DNA of 64,000 bases. Source: Urechis unicinctus. Its lineage: Eukaryota; Annelida; Polychaeta; Xenopneusta; Urechidae. The stretch is taken from assembly GCA_034190875.2 (NCBI GenBank), contig CM067356.1, positions 54,154,102-54,218,101 of the forward strand, in the 5' to 3' direction. A program made the position numbers and the translations under genes. Positions 9,800 through 60,440 of this stretch are shown here, piece by piece. How positions within the stretch are numbered: the first letter of the stretch is position 1; each line of letters opens with the position of its first letter. Under the pieces are notes generated by a model. That model was not told the DNA's origin, ran no database searches, and worked only from the letters and a program-made list of their open reading frames with translations.

Positions 9800-10975
9800 T
9801 CCTATCTATGTTGTGTAAATTCATAACATTACCTCAAACAATAACTCCATGGATCCATTTATTTCCTAACCTAAACACCGATGATTGAAGTCTTTGCGCC
9901 TTTCGCAATCTACCAATTGTGATATCAGTTATCTGATATCAGCAATCGTAGTAGAATCTTACGACTGTTCATGCAAACTTAGGCGTAGCCATACAGTGGT
10001 AGACCGCCGTAAATACACGCATAACCATCCTTTAAATGCTATATAACGGGCCTTATCTGCTATCTACCGGTGTCCAGGAACTAATCTGTGAGATTTATTA
10101 AGTAGTAACGTATTGCCACAAGTAGCTTTTGTACTGCCTGCGCATGCAGTCTACAAACGTACCAGACTGCCCATGTGGATTTTGATGTGCTGGCAACATC
10201 AATAATTAATTTCTACTGACTCTCATACTGAATATGGCAAGATAAAGGATTGCATAAATGGAAGACAAATATTTCGCTTTATGGTTTTTCCATTCTACCA
10301 AACACACCGGGCATCACTATCTCAGATTTTTGATGTTGATTACGATCTCGGAGGGGTGCCTAAATGGGACACAAACGCCAGTTAAATAACCGAGTCATAT
10401 ATGACTGTGATAATGGTTGTGCTCCACCAAGAATCGAATCGCCGGGATAACGATTAAATCAGCGTGCCTAAGGCAGGATGATGGTCGTTAATTCACAGGT
10501 CAAGATTACGGATAATGAAAGCACTTGGAGGTTTTGTTTCCCCACTAGGAAACTAAAATCAGCTATCAACATTGGGTCCTTTCTGTAGCTCATTGCCACT
10601 TCGTGCAATGAAGGCATCGTGATATCATTTTGCCATGGGCGGTCAGCGCCGTTAAGAAGCATGCTTTTACATTAACGCAGCTATAACACGATAACCATTG
10701 ACCTTCGTCCGCGTAGTCAGAATCGCAGACTATCATCTCCTAGTACCATCTATTCGAATTTATTTGTTTAAATGCCAACATTGGACCTCGACACGAATGG
10801 TAGCTATGCAATACACAACATTGACTATGGTGATCGACGGCTTTTGATGATTTCTTGTTCTTGTTCGGTTCGCTTCTGTTGCCGTTGAGAGCAAAGGCAG
10901 TTTGCCGATTATATTGCCGGAATTCAAACGAATCCTTGCTGATATGTCTTAAATATTCCAAGAGAGACATACAAT
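9800..10975. repeat. Inverted-repeat arm A, left copy, part 3
   Basis: Matches 33,600-34,800 in reverse complement. Anchors include the stretch around 9,840-9,950 (partner 34,600-34,740) and 10,190-10,400 (partner 34,140-34,340). No conserved open frame. Confidence 0.85.
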
Positions 10976-11642
<667 letters not shown>

Positions 11643-16741: not shown

Positions 16742-18003
16742 AGGTGTATGTGTTTTATTCTCGTTTGAAGAACTTGAACATATTTATTGACGGCGGAGAT
16801 GATGTTTGTTCAATAGCTCATATTATTTGAGGACAAACCGAAAAATTCCTGGAAAGAGAAATTTCCGGAAAACGAAACTATCAGTCATCTGCCGATATCT
16901 ATTCAATTTTCACAAATACGTCTATACATAATGGTGTTTGTGTTGTTGTTTGCTCACATAATACTTTTTTTCGATTCCATTGAGGTTTTCTTTAACCACC
17001 CATTTAATATATCAGCAGGTGTTTCTATGTCATTACCTTCAGCTCCAACAAAATATCGATAGTTGATACACTGGACTGTAAGGCATACTTGCTTAATGGG
17101 ATAATGGTAGGGGGGGGGGAGTAACATAATGGGGCTAGTTACGTCCTTCAACGCCCCAAACCAACTTCCTGTTGGCTGTTGCTATGTATGTCTGTAGTTA
17201 GACAGAGTTCACAGTTGTTTTGGAACATGTGTTTATTTACAAGATGGCTACTTACTAACACAAACTCTCTGTGAACCTAGCGGCGCTTATCAACATCAAT
17301 ATACAATAGAATATTATGATATGCATATGTAACATCTCTTGGTGTAATAAACGTTATAAATATTATTCTAATGAGTCCTTGTAGATCAGTCGCCCTTGCT
17401 CAATAACAATGCACTTGGAATAGTCTATATCTAGTTGGTATGTTGCTGTGGCTTGACAGATTCTAGACATTATTTCCTTCGTTTTACGGGTGGTTGACTG
17501 GTAGGCTCTTGGACATTGGGTACCTCAAATGGTTTTGCTTTCTTTCTGTTCTACTTCTTCGCCATGTTCCTTCTTCAGTGTCTTCAATATAAGACCTATT
17601 TCCTACGTCGCCAGCAACACTTGCTTCGTTTCTTCACTTCTTGTCTTGATCAGTCCTCATCATGACACGATCACTTGACTTTCTCTGTGGTTGAACACTA
17701 TGACACGGTTGCAGTGATCTGCTACTGAGTGTGAATTTTCCTCTTCAATGCTCTTCGTGTACTTCTTATTGTCTACGTTATTCAGGTTTTAGCTTAAAGA
17801 TCAAAACTAACGTTTTTTGGCATATCCGATTTGTATGTTTCAAAATGTAGGAAAATATCTTTTAATCTGACCACGGTAGATAATTTTACATTCTCTCAAG
17901 TACTGTGGACATAAATCCGCTGAGAATGTGGTGCTCGGGTTTAATTCCGATTGAATTCCCAGAGTCCATTTTGCACCAGTTGGTCGCTAGGAGGCAGGAC
18001 GCG

Positions 18004-18011
18004 TGACGTCA
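18004..18011. promoter_or_regulatory. CRE-like palindrome TGACGTCA upstream of P2RX7_C gene 1
   Basis: Perfect 8-bp CRE/ATF-type palindrome about 118-125 bp before the ATG at 18,129, in a locally G+C-rich patch. The opposing THAP gene has the same palindrome at a nearly equal distance. A promoter role is inference. Confidence 0.55.
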
Positions 18012-18128
18012 CGTTTGCGGCTCGTCCCAAAGCAAATTCGAAGGCGGTATTTCGGAAGCTGAGAAAAATTATACGATCCGCGATTTTTTCCCTGCAACTT
18101 TCCTTTCTACTGATTGGTATATATTAAC

Positions 18129-19330
18129 ATGTCGTCATCAGATGAAGATTATGAAGCCTCATTAGATGAAATGAGGACTTATGATGTCCGTTGATATTTA
18201 TTTGAGCCCACACGATTGCGAATAACAACCGAGTCAGATAATGATGTTGGGAGCTCAGAAACGGATTCCGATTCGGAAAATGAATGCAGCAAAGACGCTT
18301 TGACTTTCTGGCCAGTGGAAGTGTGGTAGGTAGAAATTTTTCGTCTCTATTAGTCTAAATGGATTAGCACCGGTACAATTCCGTGTAATGGGGTCTATCT
18401 GGCCTACACACCCAAGTCAATAAATTCACCCAGCGCGTTCCCCGAGCGATAGTGACATGTATGATAATATACATAATTGACTTGGGTGCCTGTGAACTGG
18501 CCCCTTTCAGAATTTAGACGTCCTGTTAATATATCTCTCATCAGTGTATATTTAAAAGACTAAGTCTACTCTTTTGCTCACAGATAAAGTCAGAATGCTC
18601 GGAAGAATTTGTGAATCATGGACAAACATGCACTGCTGGGTCAGCTTTTGTTATGTGAATGATCTAACTTGGAGTTCAAAATGGCTAAAGCTTGATTTGG
18701 GCAACCTTTTAGGTGTAGCTGTAACAACTGCGATCAGATGACCACATTGCGGGAATGTGTTTGTTGTCGAAATTACCTGAAGTCTCTGGCAACAATAGAA
18801 GAGTGGCCATGTATGACCGAACATCCAGGGTTCAAGTCAAACTGCTTGGACCGTAATGTCCTGCTTGCATCGAAATTCTAGTACATACAGATAGATGGAC
18901 ATATAGGGGATGAAGTTAACACAAATCAGTTAGTTATGCCTTTATTGAAGCACATATAAGACACACAGCCACTTCTGGACATGGACAATGTGTATCCCAA
19001 GTGTCCATGTTGTGCAATAGATTTGGTAATCAAGTTCAGTGCTACATGACAACAAACAGCAAAACCAGCAATACATTTATATCTGGAGTACATAGTTGAC
19101 AAAAAAATTAGAGTTAAAAAACATTATTTTCATATTTCCCTAAGAAATAATTAATTCTTTTTTGCTCCAGGTTATTCAGATATTTGGCCTATTGCCATTT
19201 CATCTACTGGGTGTGGCACAGATTAGGTAGACATAACAGAAAAGTATTGCCATCATGTGTCGTAAACAAAATAAGATCTACATTCCCAGATCCAGAGGGC
19301 ATTTACAGAGGATACCTAGAAAGTAGCTGA
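18129..19330 (+). pseudogene. P2RX7_C-domain protein of transposon 1, three exons
   Basis: Exons 18,129-18,325, 18,713-18,928 and 19,171-19,330 have GT/AG borders and add to 573 nt, exactly 191 codons including the stop, which supports the model. Exon 1 is acidic (MSSSDEDYEASLDEM start, YLFEPTR motif). Exon 2 has the cysteine signature W|CSCNNC...RECVCC followed by CMTEHPGF...CLDR. Exon 3 carries RYLAYCHFIYWVW and VLPSCVVNKIRSTFP. These match the intracellular C-terminal domain of P2X7 receptors, which occurs alone in many invertebrate proteins; in the receptor it binds zinc. Two in-frame stops (TGA 18,192-18,194, TAG 18,879-18,881) break it. Its stop overlaps the end of the opposing transposase gene by about 15 bp. 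Its role in the transposon is unknown. Confidence 0.82.
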
Positions 19331-21257
19331 GGAGATTTTGTTTGCATGATTGACGCGGCATAGGTGTGCTCCCACAAGGATGTCCTTTGCTGGCTTTTCA
19401 AATTGAACAGCAATAGGGGGCGGAACACTCCTTTCCGCCGAAAGAACTTTCGCCAGTCTGTAACTGGGATATTTCTCACGAAGCACAAACACTTCAGTAA
19501 TGAGGTTGTCAACATAATCTGAAGCATAACCAGTTAATAAAAGATTAGTAATAAATTGTCTTTGAATCATTAAATGGAATGTTTGGTCTTTTGTGCCAGT
19601 ATAATTACCCTATGGGCACGGCAGGAAACTCATAATAAATTTATCTTAATAAATGCCATTATTGTTGAACTCATATTTATATATATTGAACAACAAATCC
19701 TGTGATATATACCAACCAAAACAGGCTTCACCACTGGATCACCCTGTCTGGACTTTGGAAAGGACACTCCCCATTGTGCCTGGCCTTGTTGAGTGACTGC
19801 CTGAGCTCTATTGGAGTTTTCATTAAAATGCAAAACTGCAAGGAGTAATCTGGAAGTAAAGCACCAACAGTAGCAGATATAGCCTGGTGGTCTGGCATGC
19901 CTATGTGAGCTCACAATACACCAGCATGTCATAACTTTACAAGCACCAACATAAACCCATGTTTTACATCAGGTATTTGCAATATATACCACACTACAGT
20001 CACAGCAAAGCTCAATTAAATCACCTTGCTTCCATAGTGGCAAAGGGAAAGTGTACACTCTTGGGCGCGAAGAAGATCACCACCTTGTGGAAAGATTCTA
20101 AGCTGGATGTCTGCTCAGACAGAGATAATCTGCCAATGTCTTTCAGAAGGTGTTTGCTGTTTACGACCAGGGCCATCCTCTAGCTCAATGCCACTATAAA
20201 ACCAAAGTTGTAGGTGCTTTATTAGGCTTATGAGAGAGCACTGATTTTTATAAGCATGCAATACAATTCCACTGTTTACAGGGATTTTCAAAGTAAACTA
20301 TCACTTACATGTTCATCCATAACATCCTTGTCACTTTCCATGTCGAATATAGACATCCAGGTGACTCAATATACTTACAAGCAAACATGTTTGTGGGAGC
20401 CCTCTACCGGTTCAGTTGAGCTGGCCTCTATCTCGGGCACACCTGTCATCTCGTTTTCACTTTCACTGGAGGCATCAAGCATCTCAGCTCCAGTTAACAT
20501 TTCATGCAGCACCTACAAACAGAGGCATCATGTGTTTCAGTGTCGACCAGTTGTACACCAATGATATTTCCCAAAATAGGGATCAAAATCACCTATATCA
20601 ATATACTTCTATATACAAACTGTCTAATTTGTCCTATGACATCAGTAGTACTCATGTAAATGGACCAATTAAACACAGTATGTAGTGTATCCAAATCCCT
20701 AAACAAAAACAGGCAATGTAATGCAAGTATTTTGAGATCACATTGAAACACCAGTTATTGAGCCATGCCCATGGGGCCTTTCTTTACCAGTGATGCCTTA
20801 GCCTTAACACGGCCATGTCATTTGGGTCGTATGATTATTCATATAAGAAATAAATTTTGCTGTCAATCAAACACTAAGGCACAACCACGACTGGGAATGA
20901 AAATTGAATGGTCCTAGCTATCTTACCTGTTGACGTCGTCTTTTCTCAAAGGCACCTCGACGTCTTACTCGATCCTGGTTCACACCCATGTAATTGAAAA
21001 TCGTTGGCATGGTACCTTGGCGAAGCCTAGTTTGTTTAGAAAAGCCCAGACTTATGAGCAGCTCTGGGTCCGTTTCATAGGCGTCTCTCTCAAAGTGGTC
21101 GGAGCAAAGGACAGGAGTTGTTTTGGTCGGCTTCCAATCCTTCCTCTTCACCTTTACAATCGAATTCTTGTGCATGTTTCGGTCTTTCGGGAACCGAAAG
21201 AAACTCTTACCCGACCTCTCGTCGTTTCTTCTCCCAACCGACACAACAATAAGGCAT
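19316..21257 (-). pseudogene. THAP-domain transposase of Kolobok-like transposon 1, broken
   Basis: Exon 1 (21,257-20,927) begins MPYCCV, the first zinc ligands. A frameshift near 21,235 then separates these from the rest of the THAP domain: SFFRFPKD, DWKPTK, CSDHF (21,106-21,092) and MPTIF (about 21,000). Exon 2 (20,512-20,379) is an acidic Ser/Glu-rich linker joined in phase 0. Later exons keep the conserved C-terminal region: LLKDI...EQTSSLESFHKVV..FAPKSVHF (20,179-20,025), LLLAVLHFNENSNRAQA (from 19,849) and YVDNL...SVPPPIAVQFEKP (19,518-19,316). THAP domains bind DNA at transposon ends. The DDE catalytic middle expected between exon 2 and 20,180 is not visible, so the gene is internally deleted as well as frameshifted. 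It converges on the P2RX7_C gene. Confidence 0.85.
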
Positions 21258-21372
21258 AATCCAAACTGTGAGTGTAACAAACCGTGAAGACTTTCATAAA
21301 CCATCAACGAGCCGCGACAACAATGGCGAAGTTTGTTGACATTCGTGATCAGCGAGCGCAGAGCAGCGAACG

Positions 21373-21380
21373 TGACGTCA
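21373..21380. promoter_or_regulatory. CRE-like palindrome TGACGTCA upstream of THAP gene 1
   Basis: Lies 116-123 bp upstream of the transposase ATG (21,257) on the minus strand, a near mirror image of the site at 18,004. Promoter function is inferred from recurrence at all four transposon genes. Confidence 0.55.
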
Positions 21381-21584
21381 CGTGCCAAATAATTCCGAAC
21401 GTTGCCGAGCGGGATGTTCAACGAGTGGAAGAAGAAAACATACACTTTAAAATCCTTTTTTAAAGGAATAGGGTGCTCCAAAGTAACCGCTATCGATATG
21501 AATACAATTATTGAAGTTTATTCTTTCGAATTTCGATTTTAAAAAAAATTGTGTTTAAGATCTTTAAGGCTGTGAATAGTTCAG

Positions 21585-21876
21585 TAGCGGCGATATGTGT
21601 TATTATGCAGCCTAATAGTGCAAGGTAAGTAGATAGGAACAGCTTCCAATTGCCTCAGAAACTTTAATTACATGAACACATGTACTATATTGCAATGATA
21701 AATGAGTTGGCAGCCATATTGTATAGACACGTTATGTCAGCGCCTGTAGGCGGCAGTGTTATAATATGGCAGCATCATAATGTTTTATTTCCCCACAAGT
21801 CTTTAGCAACTTCGGAGCAAGGTAAAGGCTGATAATACACATTAAAGGAACACAACGAGACTAAAGTAAGGCTAGT
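21585..21876. other. Left-arm-only tail of the Gypsy fragment region
   Basis: Lies between the transposon's right flank and the last recognisable integrase sequence. It is absent from the right arm, where the sequence jumps from the flank (about 56,213) directly to the Gypsy linker. It could be the 3' part of the Gypsy element, but no LTR features were recognised. Confidence 0.4.
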
Positions 21877-23471
21877 TTGGCAGATGTTACCGGCACATTG
21901 CTCACCGTTGGAGTCTTTACCACCAGCTCAAATAACACATATGCAGAAGTGTTATCTCGGCAACCAAGGTATCTAGAAGATTTCGTTGTCAGAGTGCCGT
22001 TCAGGGACTCTAGGGATCGACCACTACGTCACTACCACTTGACATCCGGGTTGTTGGTTATGAGGCGTTTGACCGTCGTGACCCTAATCTCTGCTCTGTA
22101 GTTGCTGGGGGGCAATGCCACTGACGTGAGGTGTTGCTGGACACCCCATTTGGATAAGAATGAGCGGGAAGCTGTGGCAGTGAATTCTGGGCCACCATCC
22201 TAGGAAAGTGCATCGGGGATACCGTATGTGGCAACGCAGCGGCTCGAGCTATTGATTATTCCCTCTTGTTCTCTCAAGGGTTTGCCAAATGGAGTATCTC
22301 TTCATCATGACAGGGTAGGTTACACCCTTGAAACTGATGAAGTCTGCACATATGCATTGAAATGGGTATACTGGTAGAATGAGAGGCGTTGGAGGGGCAC
22401 TCGGATGGGACGGAGCCATTCGATTGCAGTGTGTGCAGTTAGCAAGTATGAGGTTCATATATGATGTGATTCCAGGCCAGAAGACGTACGACGTAGTGCC
22501 TTAGTGGGCAGAGTGAATGGCAGAGAGAATGTCCTTACGGAGGCTATGGGGGATCACAACTCTACCTTTATAGAGGATCGCGCCGTCTGAAGTGAGTAGG
22601 TGCTCCCGGAATCAGTGACAGGACTTTAGCGGGGACAGAGTGTGGCTGGCTGGTGGCGTGGGCGTTGAGTGTTTGAAAGTCAACTGTGCATTTCGGCTTG
22701 CCTGTTTTCTTTGCACAGACCGGTGGCACCAGATGAACGGTGTCACCATAAGGACGGATACGATCATACCCAGTCGAACGTCTTGGTATCATCCTTATTT
22801 GACCTTATCCTGCCATGGAGTGGCACCGGTATCGGTGTGTAGAAGGCCACAAGTACAGCATCGGGGTTAATCATGAGTCTGATAGGGGACACTGTCATCA
22901 TGGGTTTAGGTTGGTGCTCACATGTGTTGGATGTGCTGTCCTGTTAATGGTCGATGATGAATGCTTGCATCTTCCCCTCTTTTTTTGCAGACACAGCCGG
23001 GAATGGTAGCTTGGTCGGCATTAGCGATGGCAGTTGTCGCTTGTGGCAGTCACATAGTGGCCTGTGCCTGGCAATCGCACAGTGACTGCCCCGAGCATGT
23101 TGATGCTCTTCCCGTTTGCTGCTTGACAGGTATGAGGTCATCTAGCTTCAGGTCAAGTCGGTTGACTACCTGTAACCTAATAAGGCAGTTTTGGCACCCA
23201 GTGTCAGCCATCGCATGTGTAGATAGTGATTTCGTTGAGGACGGCAACCAAAACCCAGGCCTATGTAGTCCTGCCTGTTGACTGTGAGGGTCAAGCGAAT
23301 GCAGGCCTGTGACGGTCCAGTCATCCAAACATCACGCAAATTACTGAATAGGTGGTGGTCCAATATCTTGGAACCTCCGTCACGATGACCAGCGACTCGT
23401 GTGGCGCAAAGTAACTCTTTCCCTTCGTAAGTAAATGATATTTTTCTGTTCCCAGCTGTGTAGCTATACAT
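21877..23471 (-). pseudogene. Gypsy retrotransposon pol fragment, left copy
   Basis: Minus-strand remnant of a Gypsy/Ty3 polyprotein. In order: aspartic-protease motif ADTGCQNCL (DTG at 23,205-23,197); a linker around 22,870-22,790; reverse-transcriptase start with KKTGKPKCTVDFQTLNA (22,792-22,568); then integrase, with the CTHC zinc pair, a YPFQ.ICADF stretch (first catalytic Asp near 22,344), DGGPEF (22,199-22,182) and PSNYRAE (catalytic Glu). The RT palm and RNase H are deleted between RT start and integrase, and stops are present (one directly before DGGPEF). A shorter inverted copy lies at 55,736-56,229. No functional protein is possible. Confidence 0.87.
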
Positions 23472-24045
23472 CCCGTGGAAACCAAGTCGATGCTAACGGA
23501 TTAAAACATATAATTTAAACATTTATCAAATCTTCATTTCGCTATTGCAATTATATTCAAAACCTAGTTTTCCTTCAAACTCATTTCATTGGTATTTAAA
23601 TTAGTATTGTGATCGCACAAAGTAATAGCGACACCTACAGGTAATTGTCTCACATTCATGTTAATTTCCTGCCTCTCATATCCTAAAGACAGCTCCGTGA
23701 AGCATTCACAATAGTCGAACTCATTTGTGTACTGATGTTGATAGCCTTAAGAATTATGATAAGCCAATCAATGCATCGTGGAATGTGAATTACAAAACAA
23801 CTACAAATATGTTTGCATTGTTCACAATTCTACTGTTAAAAATGTTTTGTCATAAATAACAATAACCATCTATTATTCGAATTGCCATGGAAACAGCCAG
23901 GCGTTCTAATCCTTAATTTGGAGTAGTCTAGCTCTTTATTCTAGTAGTTTAACTATTCTTCTACTTGTCTACTGCCCCGCCCCTCTATTATATTCATTAA
24001 TCGTCTGCAACCAGGTAGTCCAGAGTGTTGAAATTAGGATAAGAA
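23471..24045. repeat. Inverted-repeat arm D, left copy
   Basis: Matches 54,860-55,390 in reverse complement. Anchors are GAAACCAAGTCG at the inner edge and CTGCAACCAGGTAGTC...AATTAGGATAAGAAAC at the outer edge. No gene recognised. This is the last block of the left copy. Confidence 0.85.
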
Positions 24046-25329
24046 ACCTGAATTGGACGGCGTTTGAGGAAACAAGATTGATGGAGTAGTTTTTGAGGTA
24101 ACATTTATGAAGCAGGGTTTTGAGGAAGCCGTAATAATAGTCCCAATATGAGGCGTGGTTGGCTATATAGTCTATGTTTTTCATGTATTGTTCATATTTA
24201 ACTGAAAATGGTTAAATCATCTTAGCAAATGTCATAGTAGCATACTAATGTGTGTTAAGTTTCTGTCCTGTCCATTTTGTCAGCGTAGGAGACTGTGGAT
24301 GAATGCCAAAGCAAAAAAAGATTCAGTGAAGCATCCTTCAACTGGAGGAGGGAAGGAGACAAAGCAGGCTGATACCTCATGACGTCCGGTTTATAAATGA
24401 CGGAATGAAGTGTCGACTAGTTCTCTTTAATATTTAGCAGGCACTATACTGGAGAACGATATTTTCTGCCTAAATTGTTCATAAACAGATTAATTACACA
24501 AACATGAGTTTAAATGTTATTACCAATAAAACCTCGCAATTATTTAATTAAGCATTGGAGTGAGCTGTCATTGCATAAGTTATTAATAAAGTATGATTAG
24601 AGGAAATTTGTTTCATATAAAACAAACATGATCCTTATTGGTTCACCATTTTATTCAATGCTACACTCAGACAATCAATGAAACAACCATGTTTCAACTT
24701 GTCAATAATATGACAACTTGTCTAACTTGAACAATAAGGATATCTAGTATAACATTGTGATATTCAGCATTATATACCATTAATGCCTCCTCTCTTTGAA
24801 TGTTTGTTCTTTGCAAATTGTTTCAGTTGACCAAATGGCATGGATATCACAGGGTAAACAATACAAAAAGGAGCCTAAAGTTTGATTGGGGGAAAAAAAT
24901 ATGGATGTACCATATTAAGTGAATTTTCTATTATCATCATTTAACAATAATATGTAAAATCAGGTCTACTCTACAATGGAACACGTTCATGTACTGTTTG
25001 TTGAATGTGTGTCAACATATTTTCAAGTATTACTTGTTGCACAGTGATACATTCAGATCATTCTGATTTAGCTGTTTTGTTATTGTATGAATCAAAGATT
25101 TGTTATGAATGTCACTACTTTTCCACTCATTACAGCATCCAAAGAGAATGTAGTCTTACCAACCCCAATCTATTTTCAAAGAGGACAACTTTTCCAGCTG
25201 GGGTCAATAAATCATGGGTACTTAAGGCCATGATTGAATGTCCTTCCTGCCATAAACCCCCTCCATGGCAATATGTGTCACATGAATACTCTACTAGACA
25301 AAACTCTGCAATGTTACACATATATTGTA
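24046..25329. other. Spacer between left copy and first inverted piece
   Basis: About 1.28 kb with no match elsewhere in the window that I could find, no recognised gene and no mobile element. It is the loop of the B-A inverted pair and the natural place to test whether the structure is real. Confidence 0.6.
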
Positions 25330-25446
25330 GAAGCAGCTTGGGTTAGCTGGTTGTAGAAGGGGCTTGGATTAGCTGGTTGTAGAAGTGGATTGGGTTAACT
25401 GGTTGTAGAAGTGGCTTGGGTTAGCTGGTTGAAGAACCAGCTTGAG
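25330..25446. repeat. 26-bp minisatellite m, middle copy
   Basis: About 4.5 units of GGCTTGGGTTAGCTGGTTGT plus AGAAGT, in opposite orientation to 14,362-14,590. It abuts the BEL/Pao copy at 25,450, as the left copy does. Confidence 0.93.
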
Positions 25447-25449
25447 TTA

Positions 25450-27640
25450 TGAATACTTCAGCAGTAGCCGACAACCACCGAGACCCAAGACAATGGATCA
25501 ACAGTCCTGTGAGGTTTTGCTGGGTTTACGATAGCTCCATTTGCTATGAGAGTTGACAAGGTTTCATGAGGAACCAATTGCATTCATTAAAGACATAGAG
25601 TCGATGTACACGTCCAAACGGATCAGCAGGAGTTCTTAAGGTTTCTCTGTTTGCCAAACGGAAACAAAAACCCACAGGAATATCGTATAAAATTACCGAG
25701 TATTTGAAACTTTGCCTTTAGAACAGTTGTAGATGACCGCAATCTGACGTACTATCCTCAGGTTAGCAACACCATTAAGAGTAACTTTTATGTGGATGAT
25801 TTCTTGAGATCTATACAGGACGACATTACAGCTTCTGAACTCATCCGGGCCTTAAGATCCTCGTGCTCTGGTGGTGGTTTACCTCTCACAAAGTTCACCA
25901 GCAGCAGAAAGTGCGTATTGGAAACTATTCCAAAGGAAGAGCACTGCTAGGGAGTGCAAGCACTGGACGTAAACTATGACCATTTTCCTATTGAACACGC
26001 CCTGGGCATACCGTGGTTCATCGAAATGGACGAGTTGGGACTCTCGATTATGCTCAAACCCACGCCGCCAGCAAGAAGAGGCACATATTTGTCGTATATT
26101 TGACCCACTCGGATTCGTGGCTCCCTCTACCAGTCTAGAAGCTGATGCAACAGATCTGCCAAATAGAGGGTGTAGGATGTGATAATGAACTACCTGAAAA
26201 GTACCAAACCCAATGGCTGGCTTGGATTCGTGAGTTTCTGCTACTCCAGAAAATGAAAGTTAAGCAATGTTTGAAACCAGACAACTTCACCCCTGTCATT
26301 AACAGACCGATAAATGTCCTATTGGATGCTTTTACTGACGAATACGGCTGTGTAGCCTGCATCAGACAAACTGATACCAAAGGAAATTATTACTGCACCT
26401 TTCTGATGGGAAAAACCCATATCAATACGATCAAGGTCATTACCTTCCCACGAATGGAACTGACAGCTGCCATAATAGCTGAATAGTTCTCAACCGATCT
26501 CTTACACGAAAAAGATACAATCAAATCAAGCGGTTCTCCAACTTTGTATCAAATCGTATTCAGATGATACACGACTTCTCTAAACCACAAACGTGGAGAT
26601 ATGTTGATACTGCCAGTAACCCGGCAGATGAAGCCCCCAAAGGCTTGAATGGGGAGAAATTCAGCGGACAATCATTCCTATGGAAACCAGAGAACCGATG
26701 GATAGACCATAAAACTCTCAACATATAAAGTAAAGCAACAAAATGTAGTGGACGCGAGAACAACCACAACAGACGAGTCCATTCACACAACGATGAGATT
26801 GATCGAACAATGCTCCGACTGGCTACGCCTGAAGAAGGCATTCATTGTCTACATAATACTAGCTACAAAACTGAACAAACGAATGCATGCCAAAAACCCG
26901 GACTATATTATTTCAGAAAATTGACATACACATGCAGACGGGCATTTCACAGCTCATGCATTACATCATGCAGAGACAGCAATATTGAAACTTCCACTGG
27001 GTCAGGAGCTTAGTCCAGACATTGAGGACCTACATAAACGCCAACAAGAGACACCAAACCGTGATAACCCTGTGTCTACACCCAATTGTAAGAGAATAGT
27101 TTTGTGTAGGCTCATTGGATCGTCAACTCCAGACCATAGGGTTCAAAGCTTGGCCAATCTCTTTTGGATCAGATTGAGAAAAGAACATCTATTCAAATTA
27201 CAGAAACGTCAAAAATGGAATCGCCCAAAACGGAATATGCAACCAGGGGAGCCGTATTGCTGACAGACGATGACTTATCGCTAGAAAATGGCCCGAGTCA
27301 CGGGTACAGAACTGGATTTGAAGGGTCTTGTAAAACGACGACGCATTCTACCCTTCGCCGGCCCATACATAACACAGATCTTCTCCTCCCAATAGAAGAA
27401 CATCCGGGATCGCGTCAGTAATCTCGGTGCACATTAATCATTAATGTATGGTGTATATATCGACGGTTGATTATATGGATATCTGCAGTAGAAAGTTATG
27501 TATAATATGCTCATCACTGTTGCTTATTGGATGAGAAATGTTACTGCAGAATATTACCACTAAGCTGTCTTTATTCAATTGTTATTGCCAATAAAACCAA
27601 TTCATTTACCGCAAGCTAACTGATCCAACGGTCAAGACTA
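25450..27640 (+). pseudogene. BEL/Pao retrotransposon pol fragment, right copy
   Basis: Plus-strand remnant, inverted partner of 12,600-14,340. Visible: reverse-transcriptase start FHEEPIAFIKDIESM (about 25,560-25,615); catalytic YVDD at 25,789-25,800 within FYVDDFLRS; GGGLPLTKF; the Pao ALGIPW block (about 25,990); DPLGFVAP at 26,102-26,125; an RNase H-like segment LLDAFTDEYGC...FPRMELTAA (26,310-26,480); WRYVDTASNPADEAPKGLN (about 26,590-26,650); and the integrase C-terminal LANLFW.R.RKEHLF...KRQKW with VLLTDDDLSLENG (27,150-27,300). The integrase core is missing, and stops and frameshifts interrupt all parts. No LTRs or gag were recognised. Confidence 0.88.
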
Positions 27641-27783
27641 AGTCAAGGCTAAGTCAAGATGTGGCGAAAACACGTTGGTCCATTAATTTTAACGCATAAA
27701 TGTATAAGCTTCTGTATTACATTGCTTGAACTTTCATAGCAACTGAGCTAATCAATAGCCTTCAACCAATTAAGCAGTGTACT
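27641..27783. repeat. Short inverted-repeat piece next to BEL/Pao copy
   Basis: Matches the reverse complement of 12,440-12,560 (TTGGTCCATTAATT and AAGCTTCTGTAT in common). This shows blocks B and A were contiguous before transposon 2 and its 2.3 kb companion segment separated them here. Confidence 0.75.
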
Positions 27784-27969
27784 TTAAAGTGCCTATCGCA
27801 CGAAAAATCATGTCATTTTTTTCGCCAAATAACGGAAATATAACCCAGAAGTAACCATTTTGTCTATGTGTCAATTGTCAAAGTACGCGCTTTCTGATCG
27901 AAATTCGACTTTAAAGATGAATTCGGCGTATCGAGCCGACAAGCTCATGAATAATTCATCGCCTCCGCG

Positions 27970-27977
27970 TGACGTCA
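27970..27977. promoter_or_regulatory. CRE-like palindrome TGACGTCA upstream of P2RX7_C gene 2
   Basis: Lies 54-61 bp upstream of the ATG at 28,031. Same palindrome as at the other three transposon genes. Function inferred. Confidence 0.5.
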
Positions 27978-28030
27978 GGTCCGGGAATGTTTTTGTTGCG
28001 AGGCGCAATCTGCACTACAACTAGCGAGAA

Positions 28031-29398
28031 ATGGCTGCTGGAAATTTCGTTATTTCATCACTTCAGGAGAGCGACGAAGAGACATGGTATGGCACAGGTC
28101 ATTCACAAACTATCGTTGCTTCGGCGGAGCAAGTTTTGCCTTACAGATTCGAACCAGAAATGAGCGAATTCGACGTCTCCGATGAGAGAAAAAAGACACT
28201 GGCGATGTCACTGCTGCGTCTGTGTCTCACGCGGGTCATCCTGCCCAGGACATAGGGCTGCTACAGAACAATGCTTGGTAAGCTATGTCTGATTCTGCTT
28301 GTGCACCAGATGTAACGAAGTTAATCCATAAATTTCACTAACATAATATATAAGCTCTATTCCTAACAGTAGACTATACAACAGAGCTTTGCAGCAAATA
28401 ATTCTTCCATATCAGAAAGCAGACATGAGATACCACAAAGTTTTTTTCAAATCAAGTGGTTGCAAGGGTTCATGTTTACAAATTGTACCATGTAAATGTA
28501 AATGCTACTCCACACGAATTGCAAACAAACTAATTTCGGACTGCTATTAATAAATAGAGATCCTCTTTTATTTAAAGTAGGCCTTATCAAAGGCTGATTA
28601 CAATATTTTTAAAAGTTGATGTAGATTGATTCTGAGGTAGAATATATATAGGAGAGCAAGTACCACAGCTGTTTTCTCATAGGATTGTCAGTTAGCCCAT
28701 AAATGAATGTATAACTGGACTTTAGGAGGTGAAGATTATGGTATTATATTATCATCTGGTTAGTGGTACATCAGAGTTTCTATGAATGCAGAGGCTTAAA
28801 CATATTTGCCATACAATATGTCATCCTTTATTACATATATTCATATTCCCATCATTACATCATGTTACAGGTGTTTGTGTGGCTACTGTCAACCAATGGC
28901 AGAGGTGGAAGAATCTGCGTGCTATGTGGAAATTCCTTGAGTCATGACCTCAATAGAGAACAGCCCCATTCCCATTGGTGGCATAACCCAGCATCCTGGT
29001 TTCAGCCAAATCTGTTTGAACCCTTGGGCCTTGCAAGTGGGATATTTCTCCTACAGACAACAGCACGGGCACATGTCAGATAATGATATACAAAGGTGAC
29101 AATGTTTTCTATTATTTACACATAAATCTGTACGAAGGCTAGCAGTCATTATTTACCATTTAATTATACTTATTGATACTGGTATGACAAAAAATATTTG
29201 AGCATGGTTAAATCAACAATGTCACATGGTTATTTTACAGGCGTTACAGGTATACTGCATACAGGCAGTTTGTTGCTGGTGCTGGGGACATCATGGACAA
29301 AAGATAGAGTTCCGTTGCCAGCCTGCGCTGTTACAACAATACGAGATAACTTCCCAGTACCAGACTATAAAGGATTCCTCTACCCTCCACTCACCTAG
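28031..29398 (+). pseudogene. P2RX7_C-domain protein of transposon 2, three exons
   Basis: Exons 28,031-28,277, 28,871-29,095 and about 29,241-29,398, with both intron positions in the same codon phase as transposon 1. The first intron splits a Trp codon directly before the cysteine cluster in both. Exon 1 has an acidic N-terminus with LPYRFEPEMSEFD and then a frameshift in an A run (about 28,190). Exon 2 reads WCLCGYCQPM..VEESACY.EIP, TQHPGFSQICLN and YFSYRQQHGHM, with an in-frame TGA after EIP. Exon 3 has YRYTAYRQFV, then CWCWGHHG and RVPLPACAVTTIRDNFP, spread over shifted frames. Family match is to the P2X7 C-terminal domain. Its 3' end faces, and nearly meets, the transposase remnant. Confidence 0.8.
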
Positions 29399-29404
29399 GA
29401 CTTG

Positions 29405-30421
29405 TCTTGATACATGCAGAACCTACTCTGGTGTGCGTCAATGGCTTGTCATGGATCTGGTCTCATCGCATCTGCACACATTGGAGGTGGTGCTTCTGTC
29501 TTGGGCAGGGTTGGCTCATAGCAAACCAGCAAGAACTCAGCCATCAGGCACTTGACATACTTTGAAATATAACAGGAATCAAGTCACAGCTTGCACACCA
29601 GACTGTTGCTTATAACCTTATAGTTATACCTCCATGGTAATTGAATTTGTTGTTGTTTACATTTTATATATCAGTAAAAATATTCACCAAATGTTGCCTT
29701 TGTTGCTACTTCAGTGACAACATGCCCCTGCTTAAACTTGGGGTATCTTAGCTTGAAGACTGGATCCCCAGCTTATGTTGTCGCCTGTTCTCTGATATCT
29801 GTGATACAATGAACCAATTAAACGTGACCTACATATATTTGGCATATCAGCACATGTAAACAAATTTAATGACTCCCAAATTTAAAAACAAACACCACCA
29901 TGAAGGAGCACTGTAAAAAGCAACATATTATATCATAACAATGATACTTGCCTGGCAACCATATCATCAACTTAACAAGATAATTGACTATTTATTCGAT
30001 ACTAATACAACAAGAAAGTCATCAAATCTCACCCTGTGCTTCTCTATCTTGATAAAGGCAGGTCAGCTTTTCTTGGGCTCGGGTGGGAGGGGTTCACTTG
30101 CCTCACCATCCTTTCTTGATTGCTTGACAGCAGAGGCCTTCGCAAAAAAAAAAGGAAAAGCAGCTTCTTTCATAACCCGCCTACATCGTGGTATCCAACC
30201 AAGCTCTTCTCTGAGTTTCAGTGCCTCCTCAAAACATTCCTCGGTGAAATGAGCCGAGCACACAAACAAGGACTTGCCCGGGCCCGGCCATTTGTCTCGC
30301 GATCGTAGTACCTGGCCAATCCATTGTTTTTTTTAAATCGTCTTTACCAGTAAAACCTGAACAAGCTCACGCCGTCCCGACTGGTACGCGAGCAGCCCCC
30401 AACACAACAACCATTAACCAT
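29405..30421 (-). pseudogene. THAP transposase remnant of transposon 2
   Basis: It starts at 30,421 with MVNGCCVGGCSRTSRDGVSL (first zinc ligands). Two frameshifts follow (around 30,350 and in the A8 run near 30,330). The second half of the THAP domain then reads WIGQVLRSRDKW and FVCSAHFTEECFEE (Cys codon 30,260-30,258, His codon 30,251-30,249) and continues to about 30,063. Near 29,500-29,410 is the tail motif PPPMCADAMRPDP, then a stop, then AIDAHQSRF, equivalent to VPPPIAVQFEKP..AHLCR in transposon 1. The FHKVV/FAPKS and HFNEN blocks and the catalytic core were not found, so most of the protein is deleted. Confidence 0.8.
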
Positions 30422-30540
30422 CGTGTTCAGGCGGTCACAAGATGACTAAAAACGATCCTAAATCCCAAAAACGAGAGACGAACTCCGACAATGTAAACAA
30501 CGGGGAACTCCGTGCGTCTCTGAGAACGGCTTCCCTTACC

Positions 30541-30548
30541 TGACGTCA
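30541..30548. promoter_or_regulatory. CRE-like palindrome TGACGTCA upstream of THAP gene 2
   Basis: Lies 120-127 bp upstream of the THAP ATG (30,421) on the minus strand, almost the same distance as in transposon 1 (116-123 bp). Function inferred. Confidence 0.55.
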
Positions 30549-30735
30549 CACGCATGGTTGACCTTGATAATGGCTGCCGCAACGTTTTGTCGGGCGCGCT
30601 AATTTGAACTGACATTTTATCAAATTTTGGCCTTAATTGATCAGATGCGACGGTTATTCGACCGGTTTGAGTTTATTGATCACATTGTGAATTGATTTCA
30701 GCAAAGTACCTATAACCCTGCGATAGGCACTTTAA

Positions 30736-58703: not shown

Positions 58704-59369
58704 TCAATCCAATAAGCATTGTCTCATCGTCACAAAAATTGCTAAAGCTACAGCAGTGACGTCATTAGTGACGTAGTGAGCCATGTCACTGGCCTTGTTC
58801 TCTTCCAACAGTCCAGTAGTATAGCAGCCAGGACGGTTACCGCGTACATCGCAGTCTTTGTAAAAACCTTCAGCAAGCAATGTGCTAAGTTCATAGTAAT
58901 AACATCCTGCCTCTTCTCCGCATTCGTCCACAACAAACAGACGAATGCAGTGAAAGTAGTTGCCTACGGCCGGACAAAGGCCGATGGAAGATTTGTGCGG
59001 TGTCCGGTTTTCTCTACATGAACTTATTGCGGCTCTGGGTTCGTGCTTCAATTCTCTTAGGCAAGCCCCATGCGCCGATGCTAGCTTGAGACCGTCCTCG
59101 GAACACTGAAATCGGTACATGGCTTTTGTACCGTCGACGATTGATGTTAAAGAGCCACAGCTCGTCTGTACCAGATTGAGGCAGTTTTCAAAGTCGCTTA
59201 AACCATCACATGTTGCGTTTAGCTCCTCTCTTGTGTAGAACGGCACTTCAGCTCCCGCCGAGGTCGTATATAGTTTTTTGCAGTCCGTAAAGTCTTGAGT
59301 GCAGGTTTCGTCATCCGCTCGTATAAGCACAATTATGCCCAGCAGTAAACAGCCTGTTATTGCCTTCAT
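58704..59369 (-). CDS. Secreted cysteine-rich protein, 221 residues, family uncertain
   Basis: The only long intact frame that looks like a host gene. The first in-frame ATG is at 59,369; the open frame extends further upstream but without another ATG. The N-terminus MKAITGCLLLGIIVLIRA is a typical signal peptide, with cleavage likely before DDETC. The mature part has about 14 cysteines plus one near the end, in blocks such as CTQDFTDC, ATCDGLSDFENCLNLVQTSC, FQCSEDG and LCPAVGNYFHC...DECGEEAGC. The spacing recalls nematode and lophotrochozoan DUF19-like extracellular domains, but this is only a resemblance. Asn-Ala-Thr and Asn-Arg-Thr are possible glycosylation sites. The C-terminus has a moderately hydrophobic stretch (AVALAIFV) with charge after it, so a GPI anchor is doubtful. 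A TATA-like and an inverted CCAAT site lie upstream and AATAAA downstream. It lies in a segment missing from the left arm. Confidence 0.8.
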   Translation of the reverse strand: MKAITGCLLLGIIVLIRADDETCTQDFTDCKKLYTTSAGAEVPFYTREELNATCDGLSDFENCLNLVQTSCGSLTSIVDGTKAMYRFQCSEDGLKLASAHGACLRELKHEPRAAISSCRENRTPHKSSIGLCPAVGNYFHCIRLFVVDECGEEAGCYYYELSTLLAEGFYKDCDVRGNRPGCYTTGLLEENKASDMAHYVTNDVTAVALAIFVTMRQCLLD

Positions 59370-59427
59370 GGTGAGACATGTACAACATGCTGTGCAACCA
59401 GTACAAAGTAGCCACCTGCTGGGCTTT

Positions 59428-59459
59428 AGATATAGCCCGTACAATCTTAAACAACCAAT
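59428..59459 (-). promoter_or_regulatory. Possible TATA and CCAAT boxes of the secreted-protein gene
   Basis: On the minus strand CTATATCT (59,435-59,428) lies about 60 nt before the ATG, with ATTGG (59,459-59,455, an inverted CCAAT) about 20 nt further upstream. Plausible core promoter by position only. Confidence 0.4.
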
Positions 59460-60440
59460 CAGGTCTCCAGTGGGCGGGTTGTGTAAGTTTGCTTCCTGGT
59501 GCTCAATGTGTCATGAAGTGTTGTATGAGCGTAGGCAGGGAATATCGAGGGGGGAGGGTTCCTCAGTGATCTTTGTATCCAAACTAACCCATGAACGCGA
59601 ATCAATATCATGTTATTCAGTGCAGGTTTTATGAATCGCTCAGGCCATGTGATTCTTACTCTTGTCAGTTGGCAGTGCAATGAGTGATCGTGAATTTGAT
59701 GTGTTTACCAATAAATCCAACATTCACCCTGCAAAATTTATCCGATGACGGTAAACCGTCTACAAGATTAGAATGAGAAATATTGCCGTATTCGCTATGG
59801 CCGAATTCTGCCAGTGACGTCTGCCCCTTGATATCAAATGGTTATCTACGCAGATTTCCTCCTCCCGTATTACACTTGTTTTTGCTATGAAAGCGGTTGT
59901 CACGAATAAGTTATCTGCCATGGAGTTTGATTCTCATCTCCCGCCAGTCATGCAAGATATTTGGTCGTTTAAAGCCTCTGTATGAGGTATCTTCCATCGC
60001 GCAATAACAGCTCGCAGATTTTCACAAACAGCTGGTTGGAGATGGATACGATCAGTTGGCAGGTTGGATCATTTGGATCCTGAATCAGAGCGACTTGATC
60101 AATCATGTCCACGGATAAATTGCCCAGTACATGGGACTTACTTTTGAAGTGGAAATCCAGACGTAATTCGTGACTTTATTCGCTTTTATGTGAATGCAAA
60201 ACCACAAACAAAACATGTGCCATCTCAAATACAGACAGGCTTACCTTTTTGTGATGTCAAATAAATTTTAAATATCAGACAAATGTAGACAACAAAGTAA
60301 TAATTAAAAACAAAGTAATTACGAAAGAAATCAATCAAAATTAGATTCAATTTAGTAGACAATTCGGTTAGCCTGTTTGATAGCATCATGTACCTTCCAA
60401 TATTAATTTTCAGTCATAACTCTCTGTTTGATAGTGCTTC
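59460..60440. other. Upstream region of the secreted-protein gene, nothing recognised
   Basis: No gene, repeat partner or element end seen. It is part of the 2.5 kb right-arm-only segment. Confidence 0.5.

Follow-up and report, generated by a model that had tools for sequence, protein, structure and literature searches.

Introduction

The closest described systems are the transposons of the Kol0 group of Kolobok. According to the available text of Kojima & Bao (2022; PMC9587614), these elements encode a transposase and a second protein, KolX, which has clear similarity to residues 476-595 of human P2X7, the C-terminal ballast domain. In the same source, P2X7 is said to have arisen when KolX became fused to a P2X4-like gene, so that the P2X7 tail derives from KolX, and Nanor is considered a likely domesticated KolX. 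Ballast-like proteins of diverse animals were previously unrecognised as part of Kolobok families (PMC9587614). Stand-alone ballast proteins had been found earlier by Rump et al. (2020; PMC7016195), in the main text of which the strings "transpos" and "thap" do not occur.

Duplication of TTAA upon insertion is common to Kolobok and piggyBac, and 5'-RR/YY-3' termini distinguish the former from the latter (PMC9587614, available text). A KolX-like protein is also encoded by a few piggyBac families, in a form without most of the seven ballast cysteines (PMC9587614). On the transposase side, THAP, DDE and H2CH zinc-finger motifs are described as usual for the Kolobok superfamily in the available text of PMC6004289, on the Kolobok transposases of Xenopus. 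In the main text of that paper there is no occurrence of KolX, ORF2, second ORF or P2X.

Here we describe two elements, E1 and E2, in a 64,000-nucleotide stretch of the genome of the annelid Urechis unicinctus (the window; GCA_034190875.2, contig CM067356.1, positions 54,154,102 to 54,218,101, forward strand). We conclude, with a probability of about 0.88, that each is a decayed copy with an internal deletion, and that the two belong to different families of Kolobok DNA transposons that carry KolX (the Kol0 type). Coordinates within the window are given in Table 1.

Table 1. Features of the two elements, by position in the window.
Feature	Positions	Strand	Remarks
Element E1 with TTAA duplications	17794..21567		Element proper 17798-21563; TTAA at both ends, termini AG...CT
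E1 left TGACGTCA	18004..18011		206 bases from end
E1 KolX exon 1	18129..18325	+	One in-frame stop
E1 KolX exon 2, Cys cluster	18713..18928	+	One in-frame stop; tblastn match with relatives
E1 KolX exon 3	19171..19330	+	Open up to its own stop
E1 transposase, last piece	19316..19525	-	Stop at 19316-19318; tblastn 41% to P0032; profile E 6.8e-9
E1 transposase, C-terminal piece (LHFNENS...FPK)	19711..19857	-	tblastn 68% to P0032; profile E 2.4e-21
E1 transposase, C-terminal piece with conserved Glu motif (SSLESFH)	20024..20179	-	tblastn 71% to P0032; profile E 2.4e-23
E1 THAP domain remnant	20996..21223	-	Pfam THAP E 1.8e-11; profile positions 13-87 of 87, first 12 unmatched
E1 right TGACGTCA	21373..21380		183 bases from end
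Element E2 with TTAA duplications	27784..30735		Element proper 27788-30731; termini AG...CT; 17-base end identity
E2 left TGACGTCA	27970..27977		182 bases from end
E2 KolX exon 1	28031..28277	+	Frame broken
E2 KolX exon 2	28871..29095	+	Interrupted by one in-frame stop; two of the eight conserved Cys replaced; tblastn match with relatives
E2 KolX exon 3	29241..29398	+	Frame broken; tblastn match with relatives
E2 transposase, C-terminal tail	29395..29448	-	Frame read by eye; stop common with KolX stop in CTAG
E2 transposase, C-terminal piece	29674..29772	-	Weak: profile E 0.0038; overlapping tblastn matches P0042 (E 9e-5) and P0044 (E 0.001)
E2 THAP domain remnant, frame broken	30066..30421	-	Pfam THAP E 5.2e-9 (X at frame break); tblastn match with P0039
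E2 right TGACGTCA	30541..30548		183 bases from end

Borders and termini

Both elements are bounded by copies of TTAA (17794-17797 and 21564-21567 for E1, 27784-27787 and 30732-30735 for E2), as expected of the 4-bp target duplication of Kolobok, and their AG...CT termini follow the 5'-RR/YY-3' rule. TTAA is frequent, with 418 sites in the window. The ends of E2 form a strong terminal repeat, with 17 identical bases including the TTAA, and this repeat ranks first among the 11,426 TTAA pairs spaced 1.5-6 kb in the window. The terminal repeat of E1 is weak (9 identical bases including the TTAA) and, when gaps are allowed, 22 of the 11,426 pairs score at least as high, E1 itself counted in. Because of this weakness, the borders of E1 rest mainly on content. 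The 21 other pairs that equal or exceed it leave some room for a reading in which E1 is not one transposon and its two TTAA sites flank a nested set of repeats by chance. We consider this improbable, however, as the two genes of E1 are arranged between its ends as they are in E2, and as E1 has a subterminal inverted repeat of 22 bases whose arms lie 206 and 183 bases from its ends, at nearly the spacing seen in E2. E1 is better read, like E2, as a single decayed transposon.

The best mutual blastn match of E1 and E2 has an E-value of 0.11. A second copy of either element was not found in the window (blastn, E <= 1e-3). Long terminal direct repeats like those of KolobokP (about 450 or 660 bp) are also absent, as each element, compared with the window at this threshold, gave only its own full-length self-match.

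The KolX gene

Encoded on the plus strand of each element is a three-exon gene with a match to the Pfam family P2RX7_C (PF20478). The E-values are 6.4e-19 for E1 and 8.6e-12 for E2, obtained with the spliced genes and with X written at stops and frame breaks. Each element thus has remains of the second gene that characterizes Kol0. Both introns are in phase 2 in E2 and likewise in E1, where the donor of the second intron was chosen so that the junction stays open. In E1 and E2 alike, intron 1 splits the same Trp codon (TG|G), located ahead of the Cys cluster. The two predicted proteins are 32% identical.

Neither gene has an intact frame. There are two in-frame stops in the KolX gene of E1; in that of E2, exon 2 is interrupted by a stop, and the reading frame is broken in exons 1 and 3. 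Of eight cysteines that are invariant in 10 aligned relatives (out of 31), E1 keeps all eight and E2 keeps six. Over exons 2-3, the two genes agree at 59% of first and second codon positions (140/236) and at 42% of third positions (50/118; Fisher p 0.003). For all 181 aligned codons, identity is 51, 52 and 34% at positions 1, 2 and 3. The pattern agrees with past coding constraint on KolX, an outcome that is itself favoured by the protein-based alignment.

The KolX and transposase genes are joined tail to tail. In E1, KolX ends at 19330 and the transposase stop lies at 19316-19318, an overlap of 15 bases. In E2, both stops fall within one CTAG at 29395-29398 (the last transposase frame was read by eye).

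Transposase remnants

The minus strand of each element encodes a THAP domain, as is typical of Kolobok, although both remnants are damaged, followed by pieces of the C-terminal part of a transposase. We identified 16 related transposases (E <= 0.001) among 2,556 candidate proteins. One of these, P0032 (634 aa), is 41-71% identical to the C-terminal pieces of E1 (tblastn). The core of the relatives includes GDxR, TDxH and FDxWH, and later LExxH, all invariant in the seven proteins aligned (7/7). By comparison with the motif order in the available text of PMC9587614 (D, D, C/DxxH, E), these motifs probably hold the catalytic residues.

This core was found in neither element. In tblastn alignments the E1 transposase skips from residue 124 to residue 601 of the 759-aa relative P0039, and in E2 the tblastn matches stop at residue 115 of P0039 and resume only at the C-terminal piece. 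The 16 relatives gave no tblastn match for the core in E1 or E2 (E <= 1e-3), and a profile of the core (both Asp motifs and DxWH) had no hit better than E 6.4 in the six-frame translation of the window. With the same profile, eight of eight left-out relatives scored E <= 3e-26. This control is favourable, because several of the eight are isoforms or same-species kin of the profile members, which makes it partly dependent, and because it used whole proteins and the window was searched as fragments of at least 12 residues. Given that the core is absent while left-out relatives score, E1 and E2 are most likely internally deleted. Lacking the core, neither is an autonomous Kolobok, and we file them under Kolobok only as internally deleted derivatives.

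A few piggyBac families carry a KolX-like protein and piggyBac also duplicates TTAA (PMC9587614, available text), so E1 and E2 could in principle be piggyBac transposons of this kind. This is very hard to reconcile with the transposase pieces, which match THAP proteins having a DxWH-type core, or with the RR/YY termini, the stated difference from piggyBac. Nor does it suit the cysteines, eight of eight in E1 and six of eight in E2, as the piggyBac proteins are without most of the seven (PMC9587614). Pfam scans of the pieces, which covered some of the frames, with cores missing, turned up neither a piggyBac family nor a nuclease family (such as the His-Me finger nuclease of KolobokP).

A first-pass annotation, made from the letters of the window, had described two diverged TTAA-flanked elements, each with a plus-strand three-exon P2RX7_C gene and a minus-strand THAP transposase, with 3' ends that meet or overlap and with identical intron phases, the first intron splitting the Trp codon before the Cys cluster. 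We recovered the elements, the TTAA copies, the gene pair, the introns and the joins. The description holds in large part, except that the terminal repeat of E1 is weak, the transposases consist of THAP and C-terminal remnants without a catalytic core, and the genes, which had been treated as working, are broken: the KolX frames contain stops or frame breaks and the transposase core was found in neither element.

Relatives of KolX and likeness to P2X7

Searches with KolX retrieved 31 relatives (E <= 0.001) among 227 candidate proteins. Those with a named source come from molluscs, ticks, echinoderms, a coral and a fish. PF20478 is present in 30 of the 31, and one relative, P0008, has the name "Kolobok-2 xt" in its source. 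The 10 relatives aligned have an eighth invariant cysteine, C128 in P0001, beyond the seven reported for the P2X7 ballast in the available text of PMC9587614.

Among solved structures, E1 KolX matches P2X7 chains (four distinct sequences, best E 9.2e-6). Its Cys cluster and C-terminal part align with residues 474-591 of P2X7, in the cytoplasmic ballast domain encoded by exon 13 (PMC7016195, available text). Unlike P2X7, KolX is without a channel part. With E2 KolX as the query by itself, no PDB chain reached E <= 0.001. A profile built from 10 of the 31 relatives detected only P2X7 among the solved chains (E <= 0.1; four sequences, best E 5.3e-15). A structural model of relative P0001, of moderate quality (mean pLDDT 62.7), likewise gave only P2X7 with E < 1, in all 14 rows; the TM-scores over the query ranged from 0.39 to 0.45, the best match having 0.45. 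As the model matches only P2X7, the fold provides no hint of DNA binding or of an enzyme activity for KolX.

Profiles for KolX (A1, A2) and the transposase (A3) gave no confirmed loci in viral contigs in any of three scans (3/3), and the KolX profile gave none in genome contigs. These results say little, because the collections hold viruses and prokaryotes.

Placement and proposed function

E1 and E2 share with the Kol0 lineage the TTAA duplications, the RR/YY termini, relatives among Kolobok-type transposases, and a cysteine-bearing second gene that resembles the C-terminus of P2X7 (PMC9587614, available text). They differ in being broken and in that no catalytic core was found in them. The latter counts against the Kol0 placement, in that the core underlies the published Kolobok tree. 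Also to be set against it are the weak terminal repeat of E1, the lack of a PDB match for E2 KolX, the weak E-value of 0.0038 for the C-terminal piece of the E2 transposase, the failure to find a second copy of either element in the window, and the moderate quality of the fold model.

Animal gene sets often include stand-alone P2RX7_C proteins, as the 31 matches illustrate, and a passenger would look alike in nonautonomous copies. It could thus be proposed that the P2RX7_C gene is a host gene or passenger captured by each element independently. This would require that two elements with a mutual blastn E-value of 0.11 had arrived separately at the same gene order, orientation, tail-to-tail join and phase of both introns, and the same pair is encoded by the published Kol0 group (PMC9587614, available text); we regard independent capture as highly unlikely. 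The first-pass proposal that the P2RX7_C protein is an inherited component of the transposon fits the shared pair and introns at 32% protein identity, with the qualification that both copies are broken. This central idea agrees with Kojima & Bao (2022) and is therefore already known. The further suggestion, that Kolobok is a source of stand-alone P2RX7_C genes, fits our observations and has also been published (PMC9587614, available text).

In the intact ancestor of each element, KolX and the gene for a THAP-DDE transposase would have been encoded convergently, on opposite strands. By analogy with the family, the transposase would bind the ends, cut out the element and paste it into TTAA. KolX is predicted to be a small zinc protein with the fold of the P2X7 ballast, and would most likely serve as an accessory factor in transposition. 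If E1 and E2 themselves moved, the transposase was probably supplied by other copies.

The derivation of the P2X7 tail from a transposon protein illustrates well how a host gene can be assembled with part of a transposon, and has been in print since 2022. What the present elements add is small: KolX introns that are common to two diverged families, and a candidate site at the element ends. The available text of the Kol0 description (PMC9587614) gives no intron positions for KolX, no orientation of the two genes and no subterminal TGACGTCA repeats. Intron positions in KolX could help to test the capture of P2X7 exon 13.

Subterminal repeats

Near each end of both elements is a copy of the palindrome TGACGTCA, which we take to be CRE-like. 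Each of the four copies belongs to a subterminal inverted repeat 22 bases long, with 20 of 22 bases identical in E1 and 19 of 22 in E2. The repeat of E1 scores 34, compared with a maximum of 30 in 200 shuffles. The motif was chosen after looking at the data, and occurs eight times in the window vs. 0.87 expected from dinucleotide composition; the other four copies lie outside the four element ends. The only 8-mers common to all four 250-base ends are TGACGTCA and its shifted form GACGTCAC. Among 5,000 random sets of four stretches, six share an 8-mer with at least three letters, and two share one with at least four G+C.

Inverted subterminal TGACGTCA repeats in Kolobok were not found in a literature search. 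Tentatively, we suggest that KolX-bearing Kolobok may carry a conserved, inward-facing pair of TGACGTCA about 183 bp from the ends. Such a pair might serve as a docking site for the THAP transposase (or for KolX), or as a pair of promoters for joint expression of the two convergent genes. As a candidate binding or promoter site, it would be a small addition to the published picture.

Other features of the window

The longest open frame of the window is at 58707-59510 (minus strand; 268 residues). By eye it is Cys-rich, with a possible signal peptide. It has no Pfam match at E <= 0.1, and the 221 residues from its Met, used as a query, matched none of 465 candidates at E <= 0.001. Two other long open frames (1155-1643 and 10834-11598) include long Ile-Tyr runs and are simple TA-rich repeats, not genes. 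A BEL/Pao-type retrotransposon has left a fragment at 26139-26483 on the plus strand, about 1.3 kb to the left of E2 (Pfam Peptidase_A17, E 2.9e-14).
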